Origin: Bacteroidia bacterium
GTDB taxonomy: Bacteria; Bacteroidota; Bacteroidia; SpSt-205
Length of the DNA stretch: 64,000 bases
NCBI GenBank assembly: GCA_026003215.1
Contig: BPGV01000001.1
Span: 337,570-401,569, forward strand
Direction of reading: 5' to 3'
Below are positions 2,100 through 62,062 of this stretch, one piece after another. Below the pieces are notes generated by a model. It saw only the letters and a list, made by a program, of their open reading frames with translations, was not told the DNA's origin and searched no databases. Made by a program: the position numbers and the translations under genes. Position 1 is the stretch's first letter. Every line of letters starts with the position of its first letter.

Positions 2100-2107
2100 C
2101 GAAGGTA
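2100..2107 (-). promoter_or_regulatory. -7 box of dnaN
   Basis: TACCTTCG, one mismatch to TAnnTTTG, ending 4 nt before the dnaN ATG. It predicts transcription starting at the start codon. Confidence 0.55.
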
Positions 2108-2185
2108 GCAAACTTCTATGGCTTCATTATGCCCGTTCTTTCCACAGGGGAACCTCTCCCCGACCTTTGCACGGCGGAAAAGCCC

Positions 2186-2193
2186 TATATTTG
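2186..2193 (+). promoter_or_regulatory. -7 box of rsfS
   Basis: TATATTTG matches TAnnTTTG exactly and lies 12 nt before ATG 2206. A TTTG at 2166-2169, 16 nt upstream, could serve as the -33 element. Confidence 0.6.
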
Positions 2194-2205
2194 TTCCTAC
2201 AAAAG

Positions 2206-2583
2206 ATGAGCACACAAAAGCCTGTAGCCCTCCTTTCCCCAGAAAAGCGGTTAGAATTGGTAGTACAAACCCTTTCGGACAAAAAAGCCGAAGCTATCGT
2301 AGTACTCGACCTGCAAGAGATTGGCTATCTTCTTTGTGATTACTTTGTAATAGCCACGGCAGAATCCGACCGGCAAGCTCAAGCTATCATAGACACCCTG
2401 CTGGAACGGCTCAAGGAAGCGGAAGGCCGCCAAGTCAGCTATCATGTAGAAGGCTACGAAGTAGGGCGGTGGGTCCTCTTAGATATAGGCGACATTGTCG
2501 TGCACGTACTCCTCCCCGAAGTGCGCGAATATTATAAACTGGAAGAGCTCTGGGGGGATGCCAAAGTACGCTCCTATGCTTGA
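2206..2583 (+). CDS. rsfS: Ribosomal silencing factor RsfS
   Basis: A 125-residue protein of the RsfS/YbeB/Iojap family. The core pattern VVLDLQ..GYLLCDYFVIATA, then a helix with the RQAQAI motif, then W-V-L-L-D-I-GDIVVHV is diagnostic. RsfS binds ribosomal protein uL14 and blocks subunit joining when nutrients are scarce. ATG 2206 follows a clear -7 box and gives the family length. The dedA gene starts inside its last codons. Confidence 0.93.
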   Translation: MSTQKPVALLSPEKRLELVVQTLSDKKAEAIVVLDLQEIGYLLCDYFVIATAESDRQAQAIIDTLLERLKEAEGRQVSYHVEGYEVGRWVLLDIGDIVVHVLLPEVREYYKLEELWGDAKVRSYA

Positions 2584-3205
2584 ACATTTCTCAGACCTGT
2601 TCAACCCTAAGACCATTATACACTTGGGGGGTATGGGCCTGCTCATGGCCGTGGTCTTTGCCGAGACAGGTCTTATGGTGGGGATTATTTTCCCGGGGGA
2701 CTCCCTCCTTTTTACGGCCGGGCTGCTTACCTCGGTGGGGGTCCTCCAGCTTCCTTTCTACGCTGTGGCAGGGCTTATAGCGTTAGCTGCTTTTTTAGGC
2801 GACCAAAGCGGCTATTGGATAGGATGGCGCGCCGGAAAAGCCCTCTTCCAGCGCCCCAAAAGCTTTTTCTTCCGACCTGAGTACATACAGCTTACCCGAG
2901 AATATTACCAAAAGTATGGCGCAGGCATATTGATATTAGGCAAGTTTTTGCCTATTGTGCGCACTTTTGCGCCTCTTTTAGCCGGAGTTATTGAAATGAC
3001 TTATCGACATTTTCTTATCGTCAGCCTGATAGGGGCGGTAGCCTGGCCCAGTGTCTTGGTAACAGCGGGGTATTTTTTAGGGAATATCCCCTGGGTGCAG
3101 ACGTACTATGAATGGATTATCGTCGGCATGGTCGTGGTCACCACAGGACCGATTATCTGGCGGATCATTCGGGAAAGCCGCCAAAAAGTCCAGATAAGTT
3201 CGTAG
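2576..3205 (+). CDS. DedA/SNARE-associated membrane protein
   Basis: This 209-residue inner-membrane protein of the DedA family carries the motif FAETGLMVGIIFPGDSLLF, then GDQSGYWIGWRAG, then KFLPIVRTFAPLLAG, in the family order, with four to five membrane segments. DedA proteins act in phospholipid flipping and recycling of lipid carriers such as undecaprenyl phosphate. ATG 2576 overlaps the rsfS stop by 8 nt, which suggests coupling; an in-frame ATG at 2558 is possible. The TAG stop lies inside the -7 box of the next gene. Confidence 0.88.
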   Translation: MLEHFSDLFNPKTIIHLGGMGLLMAVVFAETGLMVGIIFPGDSLLFTAGLLTSVGVLQLPFYAVAGLIALAAFLGDQSGYWIGWRAGKALFQRPKSFFFRPEYIQLTREYYQKYGAGILILGKFLPIVRTFAPLLAGVIEMTYRHFLIVSLIGAVAWPSVLVTAGYFLGNIPWVQTYYEWIIVGMVVVTTGPIIWRIIRESRQKVQISS

Positions 3206-3210
3206 CTTTG
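3203..3210 (+). promoter_or_regulatory. -7 box of the GAF gene
   Basis: TAGCTTTG fits TAnnTTTG. Its first three bases are the dedA stop codon, and it ends 5 nt before ATG 3216. Confidence 0.6.
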
Positions 3211-3215
3211 GACAG

Positions 3216-4569
3216 ATGGAAGCCCTCCAAGCCCTGGAAGAGTATCTTGTTCCCGTACCTGAGGAGGCTCTCAAGGTACTTTTTGAGGGCCTGCAAGAGC
3301 GCCTGTGCGCGCAGCTCCGCGTGCCCGTAAGCCTCCTATACATCGGCGACCCCACAGAAAAAGACCTCTACCGCTTTGAAGCCAGTGCAGGACTGTCCGG
3401 CGAACCTACTCCGGCAGCATTCCGCATCGGTGAAGGGTTTTTAGGGCAGGCTATCCAAGAAAAGAAACCGCTTACCCAGACCTTACCTGCAGAGCTACTG
3501 GGGACACGCACCCTCTCCCCACTCGTAGAAGTAGAAGAAACCACTCTCATAGCTATACCGCTCATTTACCAAGACAGCGTAGAAGGCTTGTGGGTGCTTG
3601 CGGCGCCCCAAGAGTCCCTTTTAGACACCCTCAGTACCTCCGAATGGAAAGATTTCCTCTACAGGTGGGCAGCTTACCTCCAAAGTGTGCGTTCTCGCAG
3701 GTACATCCAGGCCCTTTTGGAACAGTCCCAGATCCAGAACCAAGAACTTATTTCCCGAGAAGAGGAGCTTCGGCAAAACTTAGAGGAGCTGGCCGTGACC
3801 CAAGAGGAAATGCGGCGTACCCAGCAGCTCTTGGCGGAAAAGACCCGCTGGCAAGATTTTGTGATAGATCTTTTTACCCTCCTCACAGGGACCTCTAATG
3901 CACGCTTCAGCAGCACAGCCCGTATCTTTTTGGCGCAGCTTGGCCAATACGTAAATGCCACGGCTACCATAGCTGTAAAAATAACGGAAAAGGTAGGCCA
4001 TACCCTTTATAGCTGGACTTCACGCAAGATCGCATTTACCCCCCCGGAGGAATGGCCTCTCCCCGAAACGCTTCTGGAAACCTTATGGAGCAGTCGAAAC
4101 TGTACTACCCTCAGCAGCCAAGAGCTGAACCTCACCGAAGGCCCGCCTTTCTGGATAGTAGCCCCCTATTTCCTTCCCCAAGGGGTAGGCGGACTACTCC
4201 TTATTGGTTATCCCGAACCCGTACCCTTAGAGGCTGAAGCCGCTCGGGCCTTTCTGCATGCAGCTATTGGACTCTTTTCTTCTTATGAGCGGGTACTGGC
4301 AAACTACGCCATAAAACACCTTATAATGGAAAAAGTGGCGCAACTTACCCGCGCGTCCCTGCAAGAAGTGCCCCGCAAACTCATAGAAAAAGGCGACATT
4401 CCCTGGCTCTCAGAACTGCCTCTGGTACAGCGTGAGCTTTATGCAGAAGCCCTTCAAAAGGCGCTGCGGGGAAAACCTCTCTGTATGGCTCGCCCCCGCA
4501 GAGATCGCTTCAAAAGAGATTGTACTTTTCTTAGGTCCTTCCATCCTGCGCGTAAAATGGGAAAGTTAA
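3216..4569 (+). CDS. GAF-domain coiled-coil protein (frameshifted)
   Basis: A cytosolic sensor-like protein, 450 residues after correction. Residues about 15-140 form a GAF domain (RIGEGFLGQAIQEKKPL; LIAIPLIYQDSVEGLWVL), 165-210 a coiled coil (EEELRQNLEELAVTQEEM), and 215-370 a second, more diverged GAF-like domain. No kinase or other output domain is visible. The raw frame runs on into the next gene's lipoprotein. Removing one G from GGGG at 4468-4471 instead gives a natural end in another frame (ENLSVWLAPAEIAS..., TAA at 4567-4569) that overlaps the lipoprotein ATG by 13 nt. The ligand is unknown. Confidence 0.7.
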
Positions 4570-5021
4570 GCCTACTGAGCGTCGGCATACTGATAGGTAT
4601 TTTTATAGGATGCAAACGGGATTCCGTGATATTCCCGCCAGCTCCACAAATAGAGTTTGTCAAAATAACGCCTAAAACAGTACAAGAGTTTGGTACGTTT
4701 CAGATTACCCTGCGGTATAAAGATGGCGACGGGGATTTAGGGGGGCAACCCGATACGCTGTATGATTTGTTTTTGAAAGATTTACGGGATAGTACCCGAT
4801 TTCCTGCGGGGTATGATGGGCTTTTGCGCTACAACATGCCTCGCTTTTACGAAGGACCTCCCCAATCTATCCAAGGCACCATAGACATCCTTGTCCCTAA
4901 TATAGCGCGATTGGATCCAAATGCGCCCCAAGAGGCTGTCGTGTTTGAGGTGTATGTGGTGGACCGGGCTGGCCACGAAAGTAACCACGTCCGCACCGAT
5001 ACCGCCTATATCGTCCCATGA
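4557..5021 (+). CDS. Exported lipoprotein, unknown function
   Basis: This 154-residue protein has a lipoprotein signal (LLSVGILIGIFIGC, with Cys as the lipidation site near residue 19). The mature part is beta-rich: QEFGTFQITLRYKDGDGDLG has an acidic DGDGD loop, as in many Bacteroidota surface lipoproteins, and the end VYVVDRAGHESN resembles an immunoglobulin-like edge strand. It overlaps the end of the GAF gene and shares ATGA with the DUF2007 gene. No specific function can be given. Confidence 0.75.
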   Translation: MGKLSLLSVGILIGIFIGCKRDSVIFPPAPQIEFVKITPKTVQEFGTFQITLRYKDGDGDLGGQPDTLYDLFLKDLRDSTRFPAGYDGLLRYNMPRFYEGPPQSIQGTIDILVPNIARLDPNAPQEAVVFEVYVVDRAGHESNHVRTDTAYIVP

Positions 5022-5254
5022 AGGGATGGACTCCCTTGACAGAAGCCCCCAATGCTTTATGGGCAACGGTTTTGCGAGATTACCTGAGTGCGGCGGGTAT
5101 ACCCGCATGGATAGAAAATGAGCATATCCAACAAGTACTGGGGAGTGGCCTTACGGGAGCGCCTAATCCGGCCTTTGGCCCGCCACGCTTATGGGTCCCT
5201 GAAGCCTTGGCTGAGCAAGCCAGGCAGCTTATAGAAGATTTTTTCAGTCTCTGA
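5018..5254 (+). CDS. DUF2007-type small protein
   Basis: A 78-residue protein resembling DUF2007 (putative signal-transducing protein, a small alpha/beta domain). The pattern W-A-T-V-L-R-D-Y-L-S-A-A-G-I-P-A-W-I-E-N-E, then G-P-P-R-L-W-V-P-E-A-L-A-E-Q-A-R, is typical. Its biochemical role is unknown. It starts at ATGA on the lipoprotein stop, so the two are probably translated together, and it converges on gyrB with a 4-nt gap. Confidence 0.78.
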   Translation: MKGWTPLTEAPNALWATVLRDYLSAAGIPAWIENEHIQQVLGSGLTGAPNPAFGPPRLWVPEALAEQARQLIEDFFSL

Positions 5255-5258
5255 GGTA

Positions 5259-7241
<1,983 letters not shown>

Positions 7242-7242
7242 C

Positions 7243-7250
7243 TACCTTAG
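7243..7250 (+). promoter_or_regulatory. -7 box of cdd
   Basis: TACCTTAG has one mismatch to TAnnTTTG and ends 4 nt before ATG 7255. It lies back to back with the gyrB box. Confidence 0.45.
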
Positions 7251-7254
7251 AGGT

Positions 7255-7719
7255 ATGCAGCACCAGCTCATTCTGGCTTATGAGGAGATAGCTCGGAGCG
7301 ACCTGCTCCCCGAGGAAAAGGCACTCTTGGCGGCAGCAGAAGCTGCGGCTCGCCAAGCCTATGCGCCCTATTCGGGCTTCCCTGTGGGGGCAGCAGCACG
7401 CACCACGGACAAGCGCCTCTGGGCAAGCAATAACCAAGAAAATGCCGCCTACCCCAGCGGCCTTTGCGCCGAAAGAACCTTACTTTTCTACTTGGGAAGC
7501 CAGCAGCTTATCCCCGCAGTAGAAGCATTAGCGGTGTATGCGCCTCATTCCCCAGGCCCTGTGATGCCCTGCGGCGCTTGTAGGCAAGTAATGTACGAGT
7601 ATGAGCAGCTGGGTAATCAGCCTTGGCTGCTTATCTTTGCCGGAGCTACATCCGTTGTGTATCGCATTCGTGGTGTGCCTACGTTACTTCCTCTGGCTTT
7701 TGTATGGAAACCCTCCTGA
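7255..7719 (+). CDS. cdd: Cytidine deaminase
   Basis: A 154-residue protein of the homotetrameric cytidine deaminase family, which converts cytidine and deoxycytidine to uridine and deoxyuridine in pyrimidine salvage. The zinc site is complete: Cys and the catalytic Glu in GLCAERTLL, and the Cys pair in MPCGACRQVM. APYSGFPVGAA and NQENAAYPSG supply substrate contacts. It is divergent from gyrB, and the next gene starts inside its 3' end by 16 nt. Confidence 0.94.
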   Translation: MQHQLILAYEEIARSDLLPEEKALLAAAEAAARQAYAPYSGFPVGAAARTTDKRLWASNNQENAAYPSGLCAERTLLFYLGSQQLIPAVEALAVYAPHSPGPVMPCGACRQVMYEYEQLGNQPWLLIFAGATSVVYRIRGVPTLLPLAFVWKPS

Positions 7720-9053
7720 CGACAGATGTTAGCCAAGCCGCTACCCTCCTGCGAAAGGGCGCAGTAATAGCCATTCCCACGGAGACCGTCTATGGGTTAG
7801 CGGCTAACGCCTTAGAAGCTGAGGCGGTACGCAAGGTATTTGAACTTAAAAAGCGACCTTCCAGCGATCCGCTAATTGTACATGTACAGGGGCTTGAAGC
7901 GTTGGAGGGGATCGTAGCAGAAATACCTGATTGGGCCTACAAGCTAATGATGCGCTTTTGGCCGGGGCCCCTTACGCTTCTCCTACCCAAAGGGCCCGCT
8001 GTGCCCGAAGAAGTCACGGCCGGCTTGCCGCGGGTGGCGGTACGAGCGCCCGCGCATCCTCTCACGCAGGCGCTACTTCAAGCGGTGCCCTTTCCTTTAG
8101 CGGCTCCCAGCGCAAATCCTTTTGGCGGGGTAAGCCCTACTACCCCTGCCCATGTCTGGGACTACTTCGCCGGCCAAATACCGCTTATCTTGGATGGTGG
8201 TCCCTGCGCCGCTGGAATCGAATCTACCATCATCGGCGAAGAAAACGGCCGGCTCATTCTCTACCGCCCAGGGGCTATTCCCCGAGAGACCTTAGAAGAG
8301 GCCTTGGGCGAAAAACTCTATACCCGCACCCATGTCACCAGCACGCCGCCTGTTGCGCCCGGTCAGTTCCTCCGGCATTATGCGCCCCGTAAGCCTCTCC
8401 TTTATGGATGGCGCACCCCTCCCCCTGAAAAAAACGCTTCTATTGTGGTCTTTCAGCCGGTGCCGTTTTCGCACCCTTACCTCCACTACTTGCCCACAGC
8501 AGAAAATCTCGCAGACGCGGCCGCTCAGCTCTACCATACCCTCCTTGCTTGCGAAAAAGAACCTACTCACTACATCCTCGTTCAAGCAGTCTCTCCCTAT
8601 GGCTTAGGCGAAGCCCTGCACGACCGCCTGCGCCGAGCCTCCCTCCCTCATGTTTTCACAATTGGCCACAGCAATCACCCTTGGGCAGACTTTCAAGCGC
8701 TACTTCAAAAATATGAAATACACGCTATCTTAGACTTGCGTAAGCAGCCTTACTCACGGTACGTGCCCCATTTTTCGCAAGGACCCTTACAAAAAGCGCT
8801 TCATGAAGTTAACATTGCTTATGAATGGCAGCCTAATCCCAATCGTCTCCTGCCGACCATAGAAAAACTGCTCCGGGAACACCTCCATGTAGCGCTCCTT
8901 TGTGCCGAAGGCGACCCGAATCGGTGTCACCGTTTTTCGTTGTCAGATACGCTGAGTGAAAAAGGCTTTGCAATTTTTCACATTCTACCCACGGGAGAGC
9001 TTCATTTGCACCGTGCCCCGATTTCCCTCTCCTTGGAAGAAAAAGCTTCCTGA
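7704..9053 (+). CDS. Sua5/YrdC (TsaC) fused to DUF488
   Basis: This 449-residue fusion begins with a full Sua5 protein: the YrdC core (PTETVYGLAA, KKRPSSDPL, PSANPFGGVSPTT), which makes threonylcarbamoyl-AMP for tRNA t6A, then a Sua5 C-terminal domain ending L-H-D-R-L-R-R-A-S. From about residue 317 a DUF488 domain follows (FTIGHSN; LDLRKQPYSR; LCAEGDPNRCHR). No in-frame Met separates the two parts, so the join appears to be translated as one chain. DUF488 function is not established. ATG 7704 overlaps cdd. The 3' end overlaps the convergent ABC gene by 52 nt. Confidence 0.88.
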   Translation: METLLTTDVSQAATLLRKGAVIAIPTETVYGLAANALEAEAVRKVFELKKRPSSDPLIVHVQGLEALEGIVAEIPDWAYKLMMRFWPGPLTLLLPKGPAVPEEVTAGLPRVAVRAPAHPLTQALLQAVPFPLAAPSANPFGGVSPTTPAHVWDYFAGQIPLILDGGPCAAGIESTIIGEENGRLILYRPGAIPRETLEEALGEKLYTRTHVTSTPPVAPGQFLRHYAPRKPLLYGWRTPPPEKNASIVVFQPVPFSHPYLHYLPTAENLADAAAQLYHTLLACEKEPTHYILVQAVSPYGLGEALHDRLRRASLPHVFTIGHSNHPWADFQALLQKYEIHAILDLRKQPYSRYVPHFSQGPLQKALHEVNIAYEWQPNPNRLLPTIEKLLREHLHVALLCAEGDPNRCHRFSLSDTLSEKGFAIFHILPTGELHLHRAPISLSLEEKAS

Positions 9054-10705: not shown

Positions 10706-10712
10706 AGGCCCG

Positions 10713-10720
10713 CAAAGTTA
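10713..10720 (-). promoter_or_regulatory. -7 box of the ABC exporter
   Basis: TAACTTTG matches TAnnTTTG and ends 7 nt before GTG 10705, supporting the non-ATG start. It overlaps the last codon of the flavin reductase gene. Confidence 0.55.
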
Positions 10721-11326: not shown

Positions 11327-11334
11327 CTCAAAGG

Positions 11335-11342
11335 CAAACATA
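11335..11342 (-). promoter_or_regulatory. -7 box of flavin reductase gene
   Basis: TATGTTTG matches TAnnTTTG and ends 8 nt before ATG 11326. Confidence 0.5.
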
Positions 11343-11346
11343 ATCC

Positions 11347-11354
11347 GAACTTTG
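11347..11354 (+). promoter_or_regulatory. -7 box of the YhhN gene
   Basis: GAACTTTG has one mismatch to TAnnTTTG and ends 4 nt before GTG 11359. It sits 4 nt from the divergent flavin reductase box. Confidence 0.45.
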
Positions 11355-11358
11355 GATT

Positions 11359-12756: not shown

Positions 12757-12778
12757 ATTTCCCTAAACAAAACACCCC

Positions 12779-12807
12779 TTGTATAAGTCGTAAAACCCGT
12801 ATCTTTG
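12779..12807 (+). promoter_or_regulatory. Promoter of tRNA-Asn
   Basis: TTG at 12779-12781, 18 nt, then TATCTTTG at 12800-12807: a complete Bacteroidota -33/-7 promoter. The -7 box ends exactly 4 nt before the tRNA 5' end. Confidence 0.75.
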
Positions 12808-12811
12808 CGGT

Positions 12812-12884
12812 GCCCGCTTAGCTCAGCGGTTAGAGCATCTGGCTGTTAACCAGAGGGTCGCAGGTTCGAATCCTGCAGCGGGCG
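12812..12884 (+). tRNA. tRNA-Asn (GTT)
   Basis: A 73-nt cloverleaf. The acceptor stem GCCCGCT pairs with AGCGGGC, followed by discriminator G. The anticodon stem TCTGG/CCAGA encloses loop CTGTTAA, anticodon GTT. The T-loop GTTCGAATC is normal. CCA is not encoded. The convergent haem lipoprotein gene ends 2 nt downstream. Confidence 0.96.
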
Positions 12885-12885
12885 C

Positions 12886-13473: not shown

Positions 13474-13477
13474 GCAA

Positions 13478-13485
13478 CAAAGTTA
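13478..13485 (-). promoter_or_regulatory. -7 box of the haem lipoprotein gene
   Basis: TAACTTTG matches TAnnTTTG and ends exactly 4 nt before ATG 13473. Confidence 0.6.
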
Positions 13486-13523
13486 CACAACGCTTCTGGT
13501 GGAGCGTCTCTCGGCTACGAGGG

Positions 13524-13598
13524 TGGGCTGTGGAGGAGTCGAACCTCCGACCTCTGCTCTGTCAAAGCAGCGCTCTAAACCAACTGAGCTAACAGCCC
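13524..13598 (-). tRNA. tRNA-Val (GAC)
   Basis: A 75-nt cloverleaf on the minus strand. The acceptor stem GGGCTGT pairs with ACAGCCC, discriminator A. The anticodon stem CTGCT/AGCAG encloses TTGACAG, anticodon GAC. No CCA is encoded. It begins 11 nt after the rpsA stop with no promoter box between, so it is probably cut from the rpsA transcript. Confidence 0.96.
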
Positions 13599-13609
13599 AA
13601 GTAAGATTT

Positions 13610-15359: not shown

Positions 15360-15367
15360 CAAAGGTA
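15360..15367 (-). promoter_or_regulatory. -7 box of rpsA
   Basis: TACCTTTG matches TAnnTTTG and ends 7 nt before ATG 15352. Confidence 0.6.
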
Positions 15368-17089: not shown

Positions 17090-17092
17090 TTG

Positions 17093-17165
17093 TGGTGACG
17101 GGCGGACTTGAACCGCCGACCCCCAGATTTTCAGTCTGGTGCTCTACCAACTGAGCTACATCACC
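17093..17165 (-). tRNA. tRNA-Phe (GAA)
   Basis: A 73-nt cloverleaf on the minus strand. The acceptor stem GGTGATG pairs with CGTCACC (one G-T pair), discriminator A. The anticodon stem CAGAC encloses the loop with anticodon GAA. No CCA is encoded. The PhoD-like gene starts 3 nt downstream, and the tRNA promoter appears to drive both. Confidence 0.96.
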
Positions 17166-17174: not shown

Positions 17175-17203
17175 CAAATATACGACAATGCCTACACTTA
17201 CAA
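17175..17203 (-). promoter_or_regulatory. Promoter of tRNA-Phe
   Basis: On the minus strand: TTG (17201-17203), 18 nt, TATATTTG (17175-17182), the same spacing as the tRNA-Asn promoter. The -33 element lies in the end of ftsK. The -7 box ends 9 nt before the tRNA. Confidence 0.72.
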
Positions 17204-19661: not shown

Positions 19662-19669
19662 CGAAGTTA
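19662..19669 (-). promoter_or_regulatory. -7 box of ftsK
   Basis: TAACTTCG, one mismatch to TAnnTTTG, ending exactly 4 nt before ATG 19657. It overlaps the polX stop codon. Confidence 0.5.
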
Positions 19670-27513: not shown

Positions 27514-27521
27514 CAAACTTA
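27514..27521 (-). promoter_or_regulatory. -7 box of the ftcD-lpx operon
   Basis: TAAGTTTG matches TAnnTTTG and ends 5 nt before ATG 27508. No comparable box was noted between the following six genes. Confidence 0.6.
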
Positions 27522-34298: not shown

Positions 34299-34306
34299 CA
34301 AATATA
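34299..34306 (-). promoter_or_regulatory. -7 box of the T9SS cluster
   Basis: TATATTTG matches TAnnTTTG and lies 15 nt before ATG 34283. Confidence 0.55.
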
Positions 34307-34375: not shown

Positions 34376-34383
34376 TACATTTG
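34376..34383 (+). promoter_or_regulatory. -7 box of the esterase gene
   Basis: TACATTTG matches TAnnTTTG and ends exactly 4 nt before ATG 34388. Confidence 0.6.
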
Positions 34384-39846: not shown

Positions 39847-39854
39847 CGAAGGTA
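39847..39854 (-). promoter_or_regulatory. -7 box of the ferredoxin gene
   Basis: TACCTTCG, one mismatch to TAnnTTTG, ending 7 nt before ATG 39839. Confidence 0.45.
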
Positions 39855-42479: not shown

Positions 42480-42487
42480 CAAAAGTA
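42480..42487 (-). promoter_or_regulatory. -7 box of the ompA-like gene
   Basis: TACTTTTG matches TAnnTTTG and ends 6 nt before ATG 42473. Confidence 0.55.
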
Positions 42488-42593: not shown

Positions 42594-42601
42594 TACCTTC
42601 G
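42594..42601 (+). promoter_or_regulatory. -7 box of htpG
   Basis: TACCTTCG, one mismatch to TAnnTTTG, ending exactly 4 nt before ATG 42606. Confidence 0.5.
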
Positions 42602-42605: not shown

Positions 42606-44363
42606 ATGCGCACTGGCACCTTAGGTGTCCATCTCTCCGGCCTCCTACCCATCATCCGAAAGTACCTTTATACGCACACCGATGTTTTTTTACGAGAACT
42701 TATCGCTAATGGCGTGGATGCTTGCCAAAAGCTTATCACCATAGCCCCCAGCGAAGGCATAACCTTAGCCTCTGATGAAGTAAAGGTAGAAATATTTTGC
42801 TATCCTACTAAGCGGCAGCTGATCATCCAAGACAACGGCATCGGCATGACCGAAGAGGAAGTAGAAAAGTTCCTTACCGTCATTGCCGCCTCCAGCGCCA
42901 AAGAATTTGCCGAAAAGTACAAAGAAACAGACATTATTGGCTTTTTCGGGATGGGTTTTTATTCGGCTTTCATGGTAGCTGAGAAGGTAGAGGTGCTAAC
43001 CCAATCCTACAAATCTGGCGTCCAAGCTGTACGATGGCTCAGCGATGGCAGCGAAACTTACACCATAGAACCGGCCCAGCGGCCGCAGGGCCGAGGCACG
43101 ACTATCACCCTCCACCTAAGCAAAGAATACGAAGAGTACGCCCAAACTTGGAAAGTACGCCAAATCACCGAAAAATACGCCCGCTTCCTCCCTATTCCCA
43201 TCCTGGTCGAAGGAAGCCCCATCAACCAAAAGCCCCTTTGGCGTGAGCAACCGCTCCAAGTCTCCGAGGAAGTGTATAAAAAGTTTTATAAACTCCTATT
43301 CCCCGACGACCCCGAACCCGTATTTTACATCCACCTGAATGCCGATTATCCCGTTCATCTCCAAGGCATCTTGTATTTCCCACCCCTCCGTCCGGAAGTA
43401 GTAACCCGCCCTGGAACCCTCTCGCTCTACGTGCGCGGCATGTTCATCACCGACGAACTGGAAGGCCTCATCCCCGAATACTTCCGCCTACTGCACGGGG
43501 TCATAGAGTCTTCGGACATACCCCTCAACGTCTCCCGCAGCCAACTGCAGGTAGATCCTAACCTGCGAAAAATAAGTCAGTATATCGTCCGAAAAGTCAC
43601 AGAAAAACTAAAAGAAATATATTCTTCTGACAGAAAGCGATACGAAAGCCTTTGGGAACATATAGGGCCTTTTGTAAAGTATGGTATGGTTCGGGATGAG
43701 GACTTTGCCCGTAAAGCCCGTGACCTGGCCCTGGTAGAAACGACGACCGGCGAGTGCTTAACTTTGCCCGAATATGAAGCCCGTATAAGTACCGTCAAAA
43801 ATCCCCGAGGCTTCTCTGTAGGCTTCTACCTCAACGACCCTGCCCAGCATCAGGTTTTGGCCAAGCTCTTTGAAGCCAAAGGCTATCCTATCATCAAAGC
43901 GGATACGCTCATTGACCCTTACTGGCTCTCTTACATAGAAAGAGAAGGCAAGATACGTTTTGCGCGCGTAGATAGCGAAGAAGCCGCTAAATGGCTGGAA
44001 AGTAACGAAAAAGACTCAGGTTTTACCCTTGAAGAGGAAAAAACTATCAAAGAAGCTTTGGAAAGGCTGACGCAGCTGCGGGTAGAAAAACAGCTTATGG
44101 GGGCTGAGGGACCCGCTGCCCTGCTCCTGAGAGATGAGAGCCAACGCCGCTACCAAGAAACCTTATACCAAAGCGGCAAAAATCCTCCTTCCCGTTTGGT
44201 ATTTAACCCGCAGCACCCCATTTACCGGCGCTACCTCCTTACGCAGGATGTACGGTGGCTCGAGCATGCCATAGATTGGGCCCGGCTCCTGAGTGGAGAC
44301 CTGACAGAAGAAACCCTGCAAAACTTCCTCCGACGGGACCAACAGCTTCTCTTAGAAAGGTGA
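42606..44363 (+). CDS. htpG: Molecular chaperone HtpG (Hsp90)
   Basis: A 585-residue Hsp90 chaperone. The N-terminal GHKL ATPase has FLRELIANGVDACQKL, IQDNGIGMT and GFFGMGFYSAFM; the middle domain has LNVSRSQLQVDP. It works as an ATP-driven dimer to mature client proteins. ATG 42606 follows a -7 box by 4 nt. Its stop overlaps the start of the next gene as GTGA, so the two are probably one unit. Confidence 0.95.
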   Translation: MRTGTLGVHLSGLLPIIRKYLYTHTDVFLRELIANGVDACQKLITIAPSEGITLASDEVKVEIFCYPTKRQLIIQDNGIGMTEEEVEKFLTVIAASSAKEFAEKYKETDIIGFFGMGFYSAFMVAEKVEVLTQSYKSGVQAVRWLSDGSETYTIEPAQRPQGRGTTITLHLSKEYEEYAQTWKVRQITEKYARFLPIPILVEGSPINQKPLWREQPLQVSEEVYKKFYKLLFPDDPEPVFYIHLNADYPVHLQGILYFPPLRPEVVTRPGTLSLYVRGMFITDELEGLIPEYFRLLHGVIESSDIPLNVSRSQLQVDPNLRKISQYIVRKVTEKLKEIYSSDRKRYESLWEHIGPFVKYGMVRDEDFARKARDLALVETTTGECLTLPEYEARISTVKNPRGFSVGFYLNDPAQHQVLAKLFEAKGYPIIKADTLIDPYWLSYIEREGKIRFARVDSEEAAKWLESNEKDSGFTLEEEKTIKEALERLTQLRVEKQLMGAEGPAALLLRDESQRRYQETLYQSGKNPPSRLVFNPQHPIYRRYLLTQDVRWLEHAIDWARLLSGDLTEETLQNFLRRDQQLLLER

Positions 44364-47212
44364 AAAAAGGAAGCTTAGGGCTTATAGTTCTGTGGCTCAG
44401 TGCGCAAAAAGCGCCGCCTTTTTTACGCGCAGATAGCCACTGGGTTGCTGAGCAGCTGCACCGCATGAGCTTAGAAGAAAAAATAGGACAGCTCTTCATG
44501 GTGCCCGCTTACAGTAGCCCTACCCGCCTCAATAAAACCGAAATAGAAAAGTGGATTATCCAATATCACATCGGGGGGATTATCTTTATGCAAGGCTCCC
44601 CTGAACGGCAAGTAGCCCTCACCAATCACTACCAGTCCCTCAGCCGCATACCGCTGGTGATAGCCATGGATGCCGAATGGGGGCCGGCTATGCGGCTGGA
44701 TAGCTTACCGCGGTATCCAAATGCCCTTACCCTTGGGGCCGTTCCGGAAGATTCCCTCGTATATAAGGTAGCTCGGGCGATAGCGCGTCAGTGTCGCCGC
44801 CTCGGGGTCCATATCAACTTCGCGCCTGTGGCTGATATAAACAGTAATCCCGAGAATCCCGTGATCGGGTTTCGGGCTTTTGGCGCTAATCGCCATCGTG
44901 TCACGCAGCTAAGCCTCCTTTTCATGCACGGTCTCCAGGATGAAGGGATCGTCGCCGTAGCCAAACACTTCCCTGGCCATGGCGATACTTACATAGACTC
45001 CCACTTTGACCTTCCTACGCTTCCCCATGCCCTCCCTCGTTTAGACAGCGTGGAACTCTACCCTTTCCGCCACCTTATCCGCGAGGGGGTAATGGGCATT
45101 ATGATAGGTCATCTCTTAGTACCAGCCTTAGATACTTTCACCGCCACAGTCTCCTATCAAATACAAGCTGGCCTCCTTCGCGAGAAGTTAGGTTTTCAAG
45201 GGCTTATTTTTTCAGATGCTCTAAATATGAAGGCCGTATCGTTATACTTCCCGCCCGGAGAGTTAGAGATACGCGCCTTAGAAGCTGGGGCCGATATGCT
45301 CCTGTATGTAGAAAATGTACCTGTGGTCTTTAACGCCATCCATCAAGCGGTCATGGAAGGCCGCCTCTCCGAAGAACTCCTTACCGAAAAAGTACGACGC
45401 CTCCTCCTCCTCAAAGCCTACTTAGGCCTTACAGCTCGCCCCTACATACGCCCGTACAACCTCCTCCAAGACCTCTGGGCTGAAGAAAACCTCGCTCCCT
45501 TGCGAGAAGCCTACATCCAGGCCGTGACCCTCCTACAAAACCGTAAAAATATCCTCCCCCTCGGACACTTAGGGCAAAAAAAGCCTCTCTATATCCAAAT
45601 AGGCTATGAAAAAACCGCCCCCTTTTACCGTTATATCAGTAACTACTGCGCTATGGATGCGCTTGTTTTACCCTCCTTAGACGCTTCTGTGCCTGACTCC
45701 TTAGCGGAAGCCCTCTCACCGTATAACCTTTTCATCGTAGGTCTTTTCAATCTCTCAAACAATCCGAAAAAATCTTTTGGTATTCGGCCAAAGGTGTTAG
45801 ATTTCCTATGTGCCATCCAAGGCACTAAAGGAGATGTGGTACTCGCTGTCTTTGGGAATCCTTATGCGCTCTCTTATTTGGGTGAGGAGACCGCTACAAT
45901 CCTGGCCTACCAGGAAGATACCCTTTGTCAGTGGCAAGCGGCCAATATCATTTTCGGCAGTGCCCCCCCTCGTGGTAAGCTCCCCATACCTATTCCCATG
46001 CGCTATCCCTGCACCGTTACCTACGACCTTAGTCTCTATCGGCCACTTTTTCCTTATCGCTTACCTTATGCTTTTACAAAGACCGACTCACTTTTACAAG
46101 CAGTGATTCAGGAAAAGCTCACGCCGGGGTTGGTACTTACGGTTATTTATCGGGATACGGTGGTGTACGCACAGGGCTGGGGCCAGCTAAGCTATACAGA
46201 CCTAAGGACACCTTCACCAAGCCATACGCTGTATGATGTAGCTTCTCTGACCAAGGTATTCGCTACGACCCTAATGGCTATGGACCTGTATGAACGGGGT
46301 AAGCTCCCTCTACAGGCCTCCTTAGGCGAGTTGGTGCCCAGCTGGGATACGCTTCCCTTAAAGAAGCTTACGCCCTATAAGCTTCTTACGCATACCGCCG
46401 GCTATCCCCCGGTACTGCCCCTCCTGAGCGAAGCTCAAGACGCCCAAGCTTTTTCTGACAGCCTCACCCCTACCCACGCCCTGCCCCTGAGCCGGCATCT
46501 CTTTTTAGAAACTGCATACCCCAAGAAAGTTTGGCAACGCATACGCACCTATACCCCCACACCTACCCGAAAACCCGTCTATAGCGATATAGGCTTTGTC
46601 GTTTTGTATAAGCTGCTTAGTCGCCTCGCCGGCGAAACCCCCGAAACCTACCTTACCCGAAACTTTTACTATCCCATGGGCTTGTATCGTATGATCTTTC
46701 ATCCAGCCTTATCTTGTTTGGATACCTTATGCGCCCCTACTGAGATAGACACTACTTGGCGGAAAGACACTTTGCGGGGCTTTGTGCATGATCCCACTGC
46801 TGCCCTACTGGGCGGCAGTTCTGGAAATGCCGGCTTATTTGCTTCGGCTAATGACCTGGCAAAACTTTTATGGATGCTACAAAAAGGGGGAGAATACGCC
46901 GGATATTGCTACTTCTCCGCTTCCACGATTGCTACTTTTACAGAGGAAGCCGACCGACTGGGCCGAGGGTTAGGGTGGGACAAACCCAGCCGAGATAAAA
47001 CCAGTACCGTACCTTCTACTTTTTCTCCGGCTACTTATGGACACTTAGGCTTTACGGGCACGGCAGCCTGGTGTGACCCTTCTCGTGAGCTTGTCGTCGT
47101 ATTCCTATCCAATAGAATACATCCTACCGGCGCGAACACCCGCTTTGTGAAAGAAAATATACGTCGGCAGGTCTTAGAAGCTGTAGAAAAAGATTTAGGC
47201 CTAACCCGATAA
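44360..47212 (+). CDS. GH3 N-acetylglucosaminidase fused to beta-lactamase-type hydrolase
   Basis: A 950-residue exported protein with a GTG start (44360) sharing GTGA with htpG; the signal peptide is LGLIVLWLSAQKA. Residues about 30-370 are GH3 (NagZ-like): the KHFPGHGDTYIDSH dyad loop and nucleophile Asp in FSDALNMKAV. A GH3 C-terminal domain follows. Residues about 570-940 are a serine hydrolase of the beta-lactamase fold: S-x-x-K in ASLTKVFA, YSDIGFV in the Y-x-N place and GHLGFTGTA. This matches a Bacteroidota two-domain family probably acting on peptidoglycan fragments. Confidence 0.85.
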   Translation: MKKGSLGLIVLWLSAQKAPPFLRADSHWVAEQLHRMSLEEKIGQLFMVPAYSSPTRLNKTEIEKWIIQYHIGGIIFMQGSPERQVALTNHYQSLSRIPLVIAMDAEWGPAMRLDSLPRYPNALTLGAVPEDSLVYKVARAIARQCRRLGVHINFAPVADINSNPENPVIGFRAFGANRHRVTQLSLLFMHGLQDEGIVAVAKHFPGHGDTYIDSHFDLPTLPHALPRLDSVELYPFRHLIREGVMGIMIGHLLVPALDTFTATVSYQIQAGLLREKLGFQGLIFSDALNMKAVSLYFPPGELEIRALEAGADMLLYVENVPVVFNAIHQAVMEGRLSEELLTEKVRRLLLLKAYLGLTARPYIRPYNLLQDLWAEENLAPLREAYIQAVTLLQNRKNILPLGHLGQKKPLYIQIGYEKTAPFYRYISNYCAMDALVLPSLDASVPDSLAEALSPYNLFIVGLFNLSNNPKKSFGIRPKVLDFLCAIQGTKGDVVLAVFGNPYALSYLGEETATILAYQEDTLCQWQAANIIFGSAPPRGKLPIPIPMRYPCTVTYDLSLYRPLFPYRLPYAFTKTDSLLQAVIQEKLTPGLVLTVIYRDTVVYAQGWGQLSYTDLRTPSPSHTLYDVASLTKVFATTLMAMDLYERGKLPLQASLGELVPSWDTLPLKKLTPYKLLTHTAGYPPVLPLLSEAQDAQAFSDSLTPTHALPLSRHLFLETAYPKKVWQRIRTYTPTPTRKPVYSDIGFVVLYKLLSRLAGETPETYLTRNFYYPMGLYRMIFHPALSCLDTLCAPTEIDTTWRKDTLRGFVHDPTAALLGGSSGNAGLFASANDLAKLLWMLQKGGEYAGYCYFSASTIATFTEEADRLGRGLGWDKPSRDKTSTVPSTFSPATYGHLGFTGTAAWCDPSRELVVVFLSNRIHPTGANTRFVKENIRRQVLEAVEKDLGLTR

Positions 47213-54610: not shown

Positions 54611-54615
54611 GCCCC

Positions 54616-54623
54616 CAAATCTA
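54616..54623 (-). promoter_or_regulatory. -7 box of the very large gene
   Basis: TAGATTTG matches TAnnTTTG and ends 5 nt before GTG 54610, which decides this start. Confidence 0.6.
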
Positions 54624-54672
54624 CTGCTTCTCGGACAAAAATCCACTTTACTTCGGATTTACAGCTAAGCTG

Positions 54673-54680
54673 TACCTTTG
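54673..54680 (+). promoter_or_regulatory. -7 box of the T9SS cargo gene
   Basis: TACCTTTG matches TAnnTTTG, ending 10 nt before ATG 54691 and 16 nt before ATG 54697. Confidence 0.5.
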
Positions 54681-54690
54681 AAGAAACTTA

Positions 54691-56782: not shown

Positions 56783-56806
56783 GCTACCCCGCCCACCGCA
56801 TAGCAA

Positions 56807-56840
56807 AGCCGGGTAGGAAGTTTTCCTATCCGGCTTTTTC
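56807..56840 (+). terminator. Rho-independent terminator of the T9SS gene
   Basis: A 13-bp stem (AGCCGGGTAGGAA/TTCCTATCCGGCT, one G-T pair) with a 3-nt loop, followed by TTTTTC. It lies just before the thrS promoter. Confidence 0.85.
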
Positions 56841-56845
56841 TTTTG

Positions 56846-56853
56846 TAGCTTTG
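56846..56853 (+). promoter_or_regulatory. -7 box of thrS
   Basis: TAGCTTTG matches TAnnTTTG and ends 6 nt before ATG 56860. No T-box or long leader precedes the gene. Confidence 0.6.
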
Positions 56854-56859
56854 CTCGCC

Positions 56860-58785: not shown

Positions 58786-58894
58786 GGGGGCCGGCGGGGC
58801 CTTTGGCCCCGCCGGCCCCCTGGGGGCGCGCCAGCGCCTTTGGCGCTGGCGCGCCCGGATAGGCGGCGCGGCCGCCTTTGGCGGCCGCGCCGCC
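58785..58894. repeat. Three tandem perfect GC hairpins with TTT loops
   Basis: Three perfect inverted repeats sit in a row after the thrS stop. Stem 1: 58786-58801 with 58805-58820 (16 bp, plus an A-T pair using the last base of the stop codon). Stem 2: 58824-58838 with 58842-58856 (15 bp). Stem 3: 58862-58876 with 58880-58894 (15 bp). Each apex is GCC-TTT-GGC and the listed stems are all G and C. No T tract follows stem 3 on the plus strand, so they are not ordinary intrinsic terminators. Confidence 0.9.
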
Positions 58895-58898
58895 CCAT

Positions 58899-58923
58899 AA
58901 AAAAGGCCTACTCCCGCAGGCCC
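58899..58923 (-). terminator. Possible minus-strand terminator
   Basis: A short stem GGCCT/AGGCC with an 8-nt loop is followed on the minus strand by six Ts. It overlaps the stop codon of the small ORF. The stem is weak. Confidence 0.35.
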
Positions 58924-59057
58924 CTACTGCCTACAAAAACGACTCCACTTCCGACACTTACCCCACGTTCAAAGTACGACTGCGCCAGCTTCGCCCGATA
59001 GTTTTTACCAGGGCCCAAAGCCAGCGTAACTGTTGCAAAAATCACGAGTAGCTCCAT
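58908..59057 (-). CDS. Possible small hydrophobic protein (49 residues)
   Basis: A minus-strand frame encoding 49 residues, starting MELLVIFATVTLALGPGKNY, with a hydrophobic N-terminus and a Gly/Arg-rich end. It ends inside a possible terminator. No TAnnTTTG box is seen upstream, and an AGGAGG near the start is simply the reverse of gmk's promoter region. It might be chance, since the region lies between the thrS hairpins and gmk. Confidence 0.25.
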   Translation of the reverse strand: MELLVIFATVTLALGPGKNYRAKLAQSYFERGVSVGSGVVFVGSRGLRE

Positions 59058-59066
59058 CGCTCCTCC

Positions 59067-59074
59067 TACCTTTG
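59067..59074 (+). promoter_or_regulatory. -7 box of gmk
   Basis: TACCTTTG matches TAnnTTTG and ends exactly 4 nt before GTG 59079, deciding this non-ATG start. Confidence 0.65.
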
Positions 59075-59078
59075 CCCC

Positions 59079-59636
59079 GTGAAAGCCCTCCTCCTTACCG
59101 GACCCAGCGGATCCGGCAAAACTACTCTCGCCCACACCCTCCTCCAGCGCTATCCTGAGCTTACCTTCTCCATCTCGGCCACCACCCGCCCCCCACGCCC
59201 CGGAGAAACCCATGGTAAAGACTATTACTTCCTCGCCGAGGCCGAGTTTGACCGCTTCCTCGCCCAAAATGCCTTCTTAGAATGGGAAAGGCTCTTTTCT
59301 GGGCACCGCTACGGCACCCTCCGCCAAGAGCTGGAACGCATCCGAGACCTCAACCAAGTCCCCCTTTTCGTCAAGGATGTAAAAGGAACCTTAGCTCTAA
59401 AAAACCTTCTTGGTCCGGGGGCTATCACCGTCTTTTTACTCCCTCCCTCGCTGGAAACGCTCAGAGAACGGCTTATCCAAAGGGGGGAAAATGCCCCAGC
59501 CGATATTGAGGAAAGACTTCTCGGCGCCAAAGAGGAAATACGGCGCATAGCCGAGTTTGACTTCGTATTATACAACGACGAACTCCCTAAGGCAGCTGCC
59601 CGAATAGAGCGCATCATCCAACGGTATTTATTATGA
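59079..59636 (+). CDS. gmk: Guanylate kinase
   Basis: A 185-residue protein that phosphorylates GMP to GDP. The P-loop is GPSGSGKTTLAHTLLQRY, with the GMP-binding region SATTRPPRPGETHGKDYYF and the lid region RLIQRGENAPADIEERL. The start is GTG, 4 nt after the -7 box, with no leader. It begins a unit with nadD and pssA: its stop overlaps nadD as ATGA. Confidence 0.94.
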   Translation: MKALLLTGPSGSGKTTLAHTLLQRYPELTFSISATTRPPRPGETHGKDYYFLAEAEFDRFLAQNAFLEWERLFSGHRYGTLRQELERIRDLNQVPLFVKDVKGTLALKNLLGPGAITVFLLPPSLETLRERLIQRGENAPADIEERLLGAKEEIRRIAEFDFVLYNDELPKAAARIERIIQRYLL

Positions 59637-60220
59637 AGATTGGGTTGTTATTTGGGTCCTTCAACCCTATCCATATGGGCCACCTTATCTTAGCACGCTA
59701 CTGGCTGAATGAGACTGACTTAGCGGAGATATGGCTTATTGTATCCCCTCACAATCCGCACAAGTCTCCCGCAGAACTCGCCCCGGCTGTCCATCGCCTC
59801 ACGATGGCCCGCTTAGCCATAGCAGAAGACACCGATGTGCGTGTGTGTGACATAGAGTTTCATTTGCCTGAGCCTTCTTATACCATAGATACGTTACAGG
59901 TTTTGCAGACGGCCTATCCGCATGAATGGGTAGTTTTACTGGGGGCGGATACCGCAGCGACGGTTCCCACCTGGAAAGAAGGTCATGTAATCCTCCAAAA
60001 CTGGACCATGTGGGTCTATCCCCGCAAAAACACCTCTGAGCTTCACTTACCTATTAGCCCTCGCCTACGGTTTTTTGCAGAAGCGCCTCGCATAGACCTC
60101 TCTGCCACGCAGATACGCACTTATCTTGCGCAGAAGCGCTCCATTCGGTACTTAGTGCCCCCAGCGGTGGAAGCTTATATTCAGACCCACAACCTGTATG
60201 TTCCGTCGGCTACTTCCTAA
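59633..60220 (+). CDS. nadD: Nicotinate-nucleotide adenylyltransferase
   Basis: A 195-residue NadD: the nucleotidyltransferase motif GSFNPIHMGHL, VSPHNPHK and the C-terminal S-A-T-Q-I-R (LSATQIRTYL) that stands for I-S-S-T-x-I-R. It joins ATP to nicotinate mononucleotide in NAD synthesis. It starts at ATGA over the gmk stop. The pssA gene starts inside its end (23-nt overlap), so the three are probably co-translated. Confidence 0.94.
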   Translation: MKIGLLFGSFNPIHMGHLILARYWLNETDLAEIWLIVSPHNPHKSPAELAPAVHRLTMARLAIAEDTDVRVCDIEFHLPEPSYTIDTLQVLQTAYPHEWVVLLGADTAATVPTWKEGHVILQNWTMWVYPRKNTSELHLPISPRLRFFAEAPRIDLSATQIRTYLAQKRSIRYLVPPAVEAYIQTHNLYVPSATS

Positions 60221-60878
60221 CCTCCTTACGCTGGGCAACTTAGCGGCAGGGAGCTGGGCCATCGCCCTGAGTTATAGGCAAGCCTGGGACCTCTTCGCAG
60301 GAGCTATCCTTGTAGCGATGCTGTGCGATTGGTTAGATGGATTTATTGCGCGCTGGCTCAAAGCCGAAAGCCCTATCGGTAAAGAACTGGATTCTTTGGC
60401 TGACTTAGTAAGCTTTGGTATAGCACCTGCTTTCGGACTGTATAACTACCTAAAAGAACCCCTTCCTACCCTTCCTTACGGAAATGAAGCGCGTTTCTGG
60501 ATGGTAATGGCGCCCTTTCTCCTGCCACTTTTAGCGGCCTGGCGCCTTGCTCGTTTTAATGTAGAAGCCCCCTCTTCTATGCGCTTTTTTGAAGGGTTAC
60601 CTACCCCTGCCCATGGCGCTTTTTGGGCGGCGTGGTTGCTTACCCATCCGACTGGCCTATGGATCCATCCCCTTGTTTGGATAGGACAAGTGCTCCTTGT
60701 GGGCATGCTCATGGTGAGTCGTTGGCCTTTCCTTTCCCTCAAAAGCCGGAAAAACCTTAGAGGAGTAGGGGGGCTACTCCTTCTGAGCCTGGGACTACTG
60801 TTTTTGCCGCCTTCTTTTTGGCCTCTCGGGGTATTAGTACTCTATGCAGCGATAAGTCGCCTCTTCCTCTCCTGGTGA
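60198..60878 (+). CDS. pssA: CDP-diacylglycerol-serine O-phosphatidyltransferase
   Basis: A 226-residue membrane enzyme of the CDP-alcohol phosphatidyltransferase family with motif D-x-x-D-G-x-x-A-R-x8-G-x3-D-x3-D complete (DWLDGFIAR, then GKELDSLAD). It makes phosphatidylserine from CDP-diacylglycerol and serine, the route to phosphatidylethanolamine. About seven hydrophobic segments are seen. It overlaps nadD at the start. Confidence 0.92.
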   Translation: MFRRLLPNLLTLGNLAAGSWAIALSYRQAWDLFAGAILVAMLCDWLDGFIARWLKAESPIGKELDSLADLVSFGIAPAFGLYNYLKEPLPTLPYGNEARFWMVMAPFLLPLLAAWRLARFNVEAPSSMRFFEGLPTPAHGAFWAAWLLTHPTGLWIHPLVWIGQVLLVGMLMVSRWPFLSLKSRKNLRGVGGLLLLSLGLLFLPPSFWPLGVLVLYAAISRLFLSW

Positions 60879-60883
60879 AACGC

Positions 60884-60891
60884 TATTTTTG
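60884..60891 (+). promoter_or_regulatory. -7 box of the T9SS cargo gene
   Basis: TATTTTTG matches TAnnTTTG and ends exactly 4 nt before ATG 60896. Confidence 0.6.
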
Positions 60892-60895
60892 CAAA

Positions 60896-62062
60896 ATGCG
60901 TCTTTTCTTAGTAGGCTTTATAGCCATAGGCCTACTGGCCCAACCGCTCCCTGATAGTCTTTGGTATAAGGACACCGCTGGGGATACAACCCTGCGTGTG
61001 TTTTTTCAGACTTTTTCGGAAGGATGGGCAGCCTCTACCTTCAATAAAGAGAATGGCACCTGGCGAGTGCTCGGCACAGACACCCTCTGGATAGACGCTC
61101 AAGAGCGCCTTCTGAAGCACCTAAGGTATATAGACACAGCCTCCCCCCCCGCCAATCCAAGCTTAGCGCCTTTCAGCCAAACGCTTTTTTCCTATCCTAC
61201 TGGGGCCTCTGTGCTTTTTACTACTTATGACTACCTCCCCGAGTCTACGTCTTTTGTACCTCGGCGGCGCTTCCACCTATGGAATACCGCTACTCGCTGG
61301 GACTCTGTACTAAGCAGTCAGGCGGCCGTCTTTGCTTTGGGGTGGAACTTCTACTTGGGCGAGAGACTCTGGCCTTTTCCTGGGCTCACCGACAGGGCTT
61401 TATGGGGAGATAGCTTATTGATAGAAGAGTTTGACCCGTCTTTTGCGCTCTTTGTAGAGGCGGGAGGATACCTCTTCACGAATGCTGCCCTTACCTGCGA
61501 TAGCTTGATGATTTATAATCCTCCCCGCCTATCCCCTATTCCCATGGGGTATTACACCCTATGCCAGGATCCGCAAGGACGCCTCCTGAGCGAACAGGAC
61601 TCCCTCTGCTCGCCCGCAGAGTGCTACGCACAAGAGCGGTTCTTCACCTATGACCCCACAGGTAACCTCACGCAGGATAGCATGGAAATCCGGTTCTACA
61701 CGCCTCAGGGACAATCTTTAGGCAGTGTCACCTGGGTCAGACGCTATCAGTGGTCATCTGCGGGCAGGTTGGCGCGTGCAGAGTATCCCGGGGGCACCTA
61801 TCTTTTATGGTACGGCTCACAGGTAGTGAACCTTGAACACGGGCAGCCTTCTCCGCCGCAGCTTTTGCAGCGAGGGAAAGAAATAACTCTCACAGGCCTT
61901 CGCGCCGGCACTCCTCTACGCCTATACAACGTTCATAGTCAGCTACTCTGGGAAGAGATTTTAGGCCCAGAAGGGAAGATTAGCTTGCCGGAGAACCTCC
62001 CCTGGGGCATATATATCCTCATGGGAGGTGCACACGTATGGAAGCTCTTCCTCCATCCGTGA
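60896..62062 (+). CDS. T9SS cargo protein, unknown function
   Basis: A 388-residue exported protein. The signal peptide is RLFLVGFIAIGLLAQ. The middle has strand-turn repeats of the kind RLLSEQDSLC and FTYDPTGNLTQDS, similar to RHS/YD-like linear repeats but not typical, with Cys pairs. The last 75 residues (GTPLRLYNVHSQLLWEE; LPWGIYILMGG) look like a type A sorting domain. No enzymatic motif is seen. It converges on the TPR-CHAT gene with a 13-nt gap. Confidence 0.72.
   Translation: MRLFLVGFIAIGLLAQPLPDSLWYKDTAGDTTLRVFFQTFSEGWAASTFNKENGTWRVLGTDTLWIDAQERLLKHLRYIDTASPPANPSLAPFSQTLFSYPTGASVLFTTYDYLPESTSFVPRRRFHLWNTATRWDSVLSSQAAVFALGWNFYLGERLWPFPGLTDRALWGDSLLIEEFDPSFALFVEAGGYLFTNAALTCDSLMIYNPPRLSPIPMGYYTLCQDPQGRLLSEQDSLCSPAECYAQERFFTYDPTGNLTQDSMEIRFYTPQGQSLGSVTWVRRYQWSSAGRLARAEYPGGTYLLWYGSQVVNLEHGQPSPPQLLQRGKEITLTGLRAGTPLRLYNVHSQLLWEEILGPEGKISLPENLPWGIYILMGGAHVWKLFLHP

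Follow-up and report, generated by a model that had tools for sequence, protein, structure and literature searches.

We studied the placement of a promoter-like octamer, TAnnTTTG or a close variant of it (the -7 box), ahead of the genes in a 64,000-nucleotide stretch of contig BPGV01000001.1 from a Bacteroidia bacterium. This whole stretch, here called the window, is part of a genome assembled as one contig of 2,268,343 bp (G000). The same TAnnTTTG element at -7, together with an A-rich element at -18, a weak or absent -33 element and the lack of Shine-Dalgarno sequences, is found in the sigma-ABfr promoters of Bacteroides fragilis, Flavobacterium johnsoniae, F. psychrophilum and B. thetaiotaomicron. 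The window held 49 copies of TAnnTTTG against 36 expected, a bare number hardly above chance; the exceptional part was the position of the boxes, many of which ended a few nucleotides before a start codon. From these spacings a sequence-only reading had proposed that leaderless messenger RNAs (mRNAs) are the main mode of expression for the genes that head transcription units.

The nine genes to which that reading had given a spacing of exactly 4 nt between box and start codon were confirmed as such: dnaN (TACCTTCG, 2100..2107, minus strand; ATG 2095), the cytidine deaminase gene cdd (TACCTTAG, 7243..7250, plus; ATG 7255), YhhN (GAACTTTG, 11347..11354, plus; GTG 11359), a Tll0287-like haem protein (TAACTTTG, 13478..13485, minus; ATG 13473), ftsK (TAACTTCG, 19662..19669, minus; ATG 19657), an esterase of the BD-FAE type (TACATTTG, 34376..34383, plus; ATG 34388), htpG (TACCTTCG, 42594..42601, plus; ATG 42606), gmk (TACCTTTG, 59067..59074, plus; GTG 59079) and the gene at ATG 60896 (TATTTTTG, 60884..60891, plus). 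All nine boxes resembled TAnnTTTG as described, four of them exactly, while those of dnaN, cdd, YhhN, ftsK and htpG had one mismatch. When gmk was translated from GTG 59079 its Pfam match began at residue 1; the gene at 60896, previously labelled as a type IX secretion system gene, had no Pfam family. Boxes at 5 nt were likewise re-read in front of a GAF-domain gene (TAGCTTTG, 3203..3210, plus; ATG 3216), gyrB (TAGCTTTG, 7226..7233, minus; ATG 7220), ftcD (TAAGTTTG, 27514..27521, minus; ATG 27508) and GTG 54610 (TAGATTTG, 54616..54623, minus). The last had been called a very large gene and turned out to be an open reading frame (ORF) of only 530 amino acids with no Pfam family.

Larger spacings preceded an OmpA-family gene (6 nt; TACTTTTG, 42480..42487, minus; ATG 42473), an ABC exporter (7 nt; TAACTTTG, 10713..10720, minus; GTG 10705), rpsA (7 nt; TACCTTTG, 15360..15367, minus; ATG 15352), a ferredoxin gene (7 nt; TACCTTCG, one mismatch, 39847..39854, minus; ATG 39839) and a flavin reductase gene (8 nt; TATGTTTG, 11335..11342, minus; ATG 11326). 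A thrS gene had been placed in the same group, and the Pfam scan of the ORFs found none; the ORF that follows tRNA-Phe was PhoD-like. Two further boxes were located 6 nt before ATG 56860 (TAGCTTTG, 56846..56853, plus) and, divergent from the esterase gene, 3 nt before ATG 34295 and 6 nt before TTG 34292 (TATATTTG, 34299..34306, minus). Transfer RNA (tRNA) genes were boxed as well: tRNA-Asn (12812-12885), which served as a promoter calibrator, 4 nt before its mature 5' end (TATCTTTG, 12800..12807, plus), and tRNA-Phe (17092-17165) at 9 nt (TATATTTG, 17175..17182, minus).

Counting the motif relative to starts across the genome had been suggested as a check, the lack of a positional peak to count as refutation; the count gave a clear peak. 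In the whole genome TANNTTTGN4ATG had 223 occurrences; the reversed pattern had 16, and a box-to-ATG spacing of 14 nt gave 13. TANNTTTGN4GTG occurred 79 times against 10 in its control. The start codons enriched at spacing 4 were ATG and GTG, both of which begin with a purine able to serve as +1; TTG showed no peak. The distance from box to start had a sharp mode at 4 nt and a hard lower edge. In F. johnsoniae the mapped promoters read T-12 A-11 ... T-8 T-7 T-6 G-5 and transcription starts 4-5 nt past the box (PMC6847099); given this distance, a spacing of 4 would put +1 on the start codon. The value is taken from F. johnsoniae and is bounded in the present genome by the tRNA genes alone (see below).

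To place the boxes relative to genes, 660 genes were called by a simple hexamer-content caller, which made no use of the box, in a sample that combined the window with 40 stretches of 20 kb each, 864 kb or 38% of the genome in total. The gene counts for this genome given from here on refer to that sample. The coding-best start of a called gene was no more than 90 nt away for 79 of 95 ATGs at spacing 4 and for two of seven at spacing 14. Genes preceded by a gene on the opposite strand must start a transcript, and 170 such divergent heads were found. A perfect box stood 3-6 nt before an in-frame ATG or GTG in 83 of them (49%), where 6.6 were expected from the mean of equal-width windows further upstream (binomial p about 2e-69); any in-frame ATG or GTG near the coding-best start was allowed, a lenient choice to which the background figure was equally subject. 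Allowing one mismatch raised the count to 112, and a promoter matrix with a false-positive rate of 0.001 per position recognized 104 heads (61%) at 3-6 nt and 124 at 3-14 nt. By spacing, 44 heads had the box at 4 nt and 20, 9, 9 and 5 had it at 5, 6, 7 and 8 nt. Internal operon genes were boxed about five times more rarely (26 of 283), and among all genes the perfect box was present in 161 of 615 (26%).

The boxes were conserved in a genome of another genus of the same family (G298), with which 58 reciprocal-best orthologues were shared at a median amino acid identity of 61%. Fifteen of the 21 boxed genes with an orthologue there kept a perfect box and one more a box with one mismatch. The spacing in these pairs was mostly 4 and 4, GTG usually stayed GTG, as in gmk, which kept both the GTG and the spacing, and the DNA upstream of the box had diverged. 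The gyrB box was retained in the four nearest named genomes, all of the same genus, and was absent from the outgroup (G313, sequence L026), which belongs to a different family of the same order and whose GyrB is 73% identical. All 17 orthologues of boxed genes in this outgroup were without a perfect box 3-6 nt from the start, and in 15 of them not even a box with one mismatch was present.

The strongest alternative to truly leaderless transcripts is that start sites are scattered 1-10 nt upstream of the start codon, and that the resulting very short leaders are still handled as leadered mRNA. The shoulders of the spacing distribution at 5-8 nt would suit this scenario, as would rpsA, the ABC exporter, the ferredoxin and the flavin reductase genes at 7-8 nt in the window. 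It agrees poorly with a mode at exactly 4 nt and a hard lower edge, with the 4-and-4 spacing in most orthologue pairs, and with the enrichment of ATG and GTG but not TTG, which would follow if transcription began on the purine of the start codon. We consider scattered starts possible, though clearly the less probable of the two.

Divergent gene pairs provided a second line of evidence. Both sides were boxed in 46 of 85 divergent pairs, and in 35 of these 46 the start codons were 26-66 nt apart. Start-to-start distances went down to 26, 27, 28 and 29 nt, e.g., CAT-cggctcaaagatagggcatacctttgggc-ATG, and the shortest gaps held two back-to-back boxes with two 4-nt spacers and hardly more. The back-to-back box pattern was found 35 times in the whole genome and never in the control. 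In the window, gyrB (7220) and the cytidine deaminase gene (7255) had promoters back to back with 34 nt between the start codons. With start codons so close, a leader of ordinary length would put the promoter inside the neighbouring gene. Promoters arranged in this way are so near each other that the two polymerases must exclude one another; no periodicity near 10 bp was detected in the helical phasing of the back-to-back boxes.

These pairs bear on the possibility that the boxes are real promoters of secondary importance, the main transcripts beginning at sites farther upstream and carrying leaders of ordinary length. Leaders in mapped Bacteroidota measure 20-60 nt for the most part, and about a third to half of the heads lacked a clear box at 3-6 nt, as such an arrangement would allow. 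However, no second positional peak of the box was detected out to about 60 nt upstream of the heads, the gaps of 26-66 nt would push an upstream promoter into the neighbouring gene, and the median gap at divergent heads was 51 nt, compared with 229 nt in the outgroup G313. Upstream main promoters are accordingly held to be improbable.

Four grounds led us to regard the TAnnTTTG-like box as a promoter of the sigma-ABfr type: its free positions, its presence at tRNA heads, its rarity before internal genes and the purine starts. An alignment of 107 strict heads showed TAYC at the beginning of the box, G at -13 and an A-rich patch at -18 to -20 (39% A, like the description for F. johnsoniae). The middle positions were C or T in 83% (-10) and 86% (-9) of the heads and G in 8% and 6%, in agreement with TAHHTTTG, and there was no information at -33, again like F. 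johnsoniae. In the sample a box preceded almost every tRNA gene that headed a unit, the distances to the mature 5' end being 4, 4, 4, 7, 7, 7, 8, 9, 9, 9, 11, 11, 15 and 18 nt. No box was nearer than 4 nt, and one of the three at 4 nt had one mismatch. Since a transcript must contain the first nucleotide of the tRNA, its start site would lie at most 5 nt beyond the box, a bound independent of the F. johnsoniae mapping. The three genes with the box exactly 4 nt from the mature end were tRNA-Asn (window 12800-12885) and tRNA-Ser (L015:600-688), both with perfect boxes, and tRNA-Lys (L017:2599-2671), the one with the mismatch. These three tRNAs are predicted to be made without a 5' leader, despite the presence of an RNase P RNA in the genome.

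The same observations speak against reading the TTTG-containing box as a translation signal (Kozak-like, or a non-Shine-Dalgarno ribosome site) instead of a promoter. The idea has some appeal in that Bacteroidota lack Shine-Dalgarno sequences and rely on other sequence features near the start (PMC6847099). We rejected it as very improbable: presence of the box at tRNA genes points to a promoter element, its fivefold rarity before internal operon genes argues against a ribosome signal, and the unconstrained positions match the mapped sigma-ABfr promoter. Chance or base composition, compatible with the slight excess of boxes in the window, was dismissed as next to impossible by the controls (16 for the reversed and 13 for the shifted-spacing pattern, against 223) and by the same pattern in 11 related genomes but not in outgroups.

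In a survey of 297 members of the phylum the window genome had by far the highest enrichment of the pattern. All ten genus-mates and the single genome of a second genus also carried it (133-192 against 2-23 in controls), so that the trait was present in 12 of the 12 genomes of the family; named carriers were four 'Bacteroidia bacterium' metagenome-assembled genomes, CALKJV/N1_Bin, SKW103, SKYB95 and SKYB116. In a genome of the same order and another family the trait was absent (50 against 39). The excess was weak in Pontibacter (75 against 37 and 58 against 26) and slight or absent in the two Chitinophaga genomes (111 against 94 and 143 against 126). A perfect box 3-6 nt from the start was carried by 24 of 40 divergent heads in G298, 2 of 80 in G313 and 2 of 30 in G293 and G017 together. 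Weaker box-ATG enrichment was seen outside the family in G041, G115, G319 (the genome of L040) and family f25 (e.g., G144), perhaps representing independent partial shifts. Three of these, G041, G144 and G115, were among the best outsiders in the pattern survey and were rejected as full cases: their head counts (2 of 30, 4 of 24 and 4 of 40) did not exceed 17%, making them partial at best. Judged from these patterns, the trait is confined to one family and is not general to Bacteroidota. The sequence-only reading had generalized from sigma-ABfr, a factor known across the phylum.

No Shine-Dalgarno enrichment was found in a search for purine-rich motifs 5-15 nt before starts, either at heads (20 of 170 against 14.2 after shuffling) or at internal genes (19 of 283 against 22.5). 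Genes on the same strand were tightly packed, with a median gap of 5 nt and overlaps of exactly 4 nt in 66 of 445 cases. Starts of internal operon genes favoured C at -2 and T at -1 (CT-ATG) and went with 4-nt overlaps or gaps of 2-4 nt, a context that suggests a coupling signal. The translation machinery does not appear visibly specialized, given that the genes for initiation factor 3 (IF3), bS1 and bS21 and the CCTCC core of the anti-Shine-Dalgarno sequence are present. The 3' end of the 16S gene (L136) read GGCTGGATTACCTCCTTT, with T in place of the usual C (GGATCACCTCC) and the anti-Shine-Dalgarno core intact; only this end was read, the remainder being masked in the sequence and hence giving no Rfam match. 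Because the genomes of the family are compact, as seen in the divergent gaps (51 against 229 nt), compaction may have been the driver, a suggestion based on correlation only.

Taken together, these results make it very probable that in one Bacteroidia family most mRNAs of unit heads are leaderless or nearly so and arise from ordinary sigma-ABfr promoters. The predictions of leaderlessness that can be examined at the level of sequence were all positive: a promoter-like box peaks at a fixed spacing, purine starts are preferred, heads are boxed and internal genes rarely so, tRNAs carry the box, it is conserved across genera, and divergent pairs are too tight for leaders. Leaderless translation as the main mode for unit heads, as originally proposed, fits the share of divergent heads that are boxed at 3-6 nt, about 49% when a perfect match is required and 61% with the matrix. 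According to the proposed mechanism, the sigma-ABfr -7 element would be shifted so that transcription begins on the start codon or a few nucleotides from it, the polymerase initiating 5 nt beyond the box as it does at the mapped F. johnsoniae promoters. The 5'-terminal AUG or GUG would be bound directly, either by 70S ribosomes or by 30S subunits with initiator tRNA. Internal genes, which have no Shine-Dalgarno sequence and in many cases have a 4-nt overlap with the preceding stop, would be reached by termination-reinitiation or read-through. The start sites, the loading of ribosomes and the coupling of downstream genes are what we infer from the arrangement of the DNA.

Several points weigh against this interpretation. 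At a third to half of the heads a clear box 3-6 nt from the start is lacking, and short leaders are expected for rpsA, rpsL and exporters, whose boxes are 7-12 nt away. Gene starts were picked from the sequence, with a lenient choice, and the whole argument is built on DNA sequence, in which leaders of 1-5 nt are indistinguishable from none. Finally, the anti-Shine-Dalgarno core CCTCC, IF3, bS1 and bS21 are all retained, so leadered initiation may still occur. A more sweeping version, that the whole family is nearly devoid of 5' leaders, with heads initiated at a 5'-terminal AUG or GUG, internal genes reached by termination-reinitiation, hardly any start codon selected within a leader though the anti-Shine-Dalgarno sequence, IF3 and bS21 are kept, and some tRNAs made from their mature first nucleotide, is put forward tentatively and may well prove too strong.

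In the mapped Bacteroidota leaders are usual. They exceed 10 nt in 87% of cases in F. johnsoniae, with a mean of 33 nt (PMC6847099); F. psychrophilum has 5.5% leaderless transcripts and a median leader of 24 nt, and in B. thetaiotaomicron 3.7% of leaders are shorter than 10 nt. The opposite is predicted for the window family. A 2011 survey of 953 bacterial genomes reported leaderless genes in one of 37 Bacteroidetes/Chlorobi genomes and argued that a large number of them could not be missed, yet it recognized Pribnow-like boxes only. No report of leaderless-dominant Bacteroidota was found in the literature searched, in which the group assignments of GeneMarkS-2 were not directly covered. The type of mechanism is known, and its dominance in Bacteroidota with the phylum's own promoter appears to be new.

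The closest working analogue is Deinococcus-Thermus, where in D. radiodurans a -10 motif adjoins about 30% of ORFs and is read as a sign of leaderless mRNA (PMC12340547). Both systems have a promoter element a few nucleotides before the start codon, in a similar proportion of genes (about 30% of ORFs there, 26% or 161 of 615 here). They differ in the phylum, in the element (a sigma-70 TATAAT-type -10 there, sigma-ABfr TAYCTTTG here), in the evidence (transcription data there, sequence alone here), and in that no use of Shine-Dalgarno sites was detected for the remaining genes of the window genome. In Actinobacteria (Mycobacterium, Streptomyces) of the order of a fifth or more of genes are expected to be leaderless (PMC9031893), but the promoters are of the sigma-70 type and the coexisting leadered genes use Shine-Dalgarno sites. 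The tight divergent pairs resemble the bidirectional promoters of Escherichia coli (PMC12825309), in which two opposed elements on a very short stretch give divergent transcripts. A distance of 18 bp between the opposed start sites is typical in E. coli, with 10 and 23 bp also occurring, and the two promoters may have elements in common, whereas the window genome has separate -7 boxes and predicted start sites at least 27 bp apart, both at start codons.

Bacteroidota choose start codons without Shine-Dalgarno sequences, and leaderlessness had been examined and dismissed as a general explanation because leaders are present in the three species that were mapped. In one branch, expression now appears to have switched to the leaderless mode through the phylum's own promoter. 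Leaderless genomes can therefore be set beside leadered relatives that do not differ from them in promoter type or in lacking Shine-Dalgarno sequences. For gene finding in these genomes it supplies a rule, namely that the box marks the start codon, GTG starts included.

Two other ORFs of the window each combined two domains. The one at 44360-47212 (plus strand) fused a family 3 glycosyl hydrolase with a serine hydrolase domain of the beta-lactamase family, and the one at 7704-9053 (plus strand) encoded a threonylcarbamoyl-AMP synthase (Sua5) followed by a DUF488 domain.

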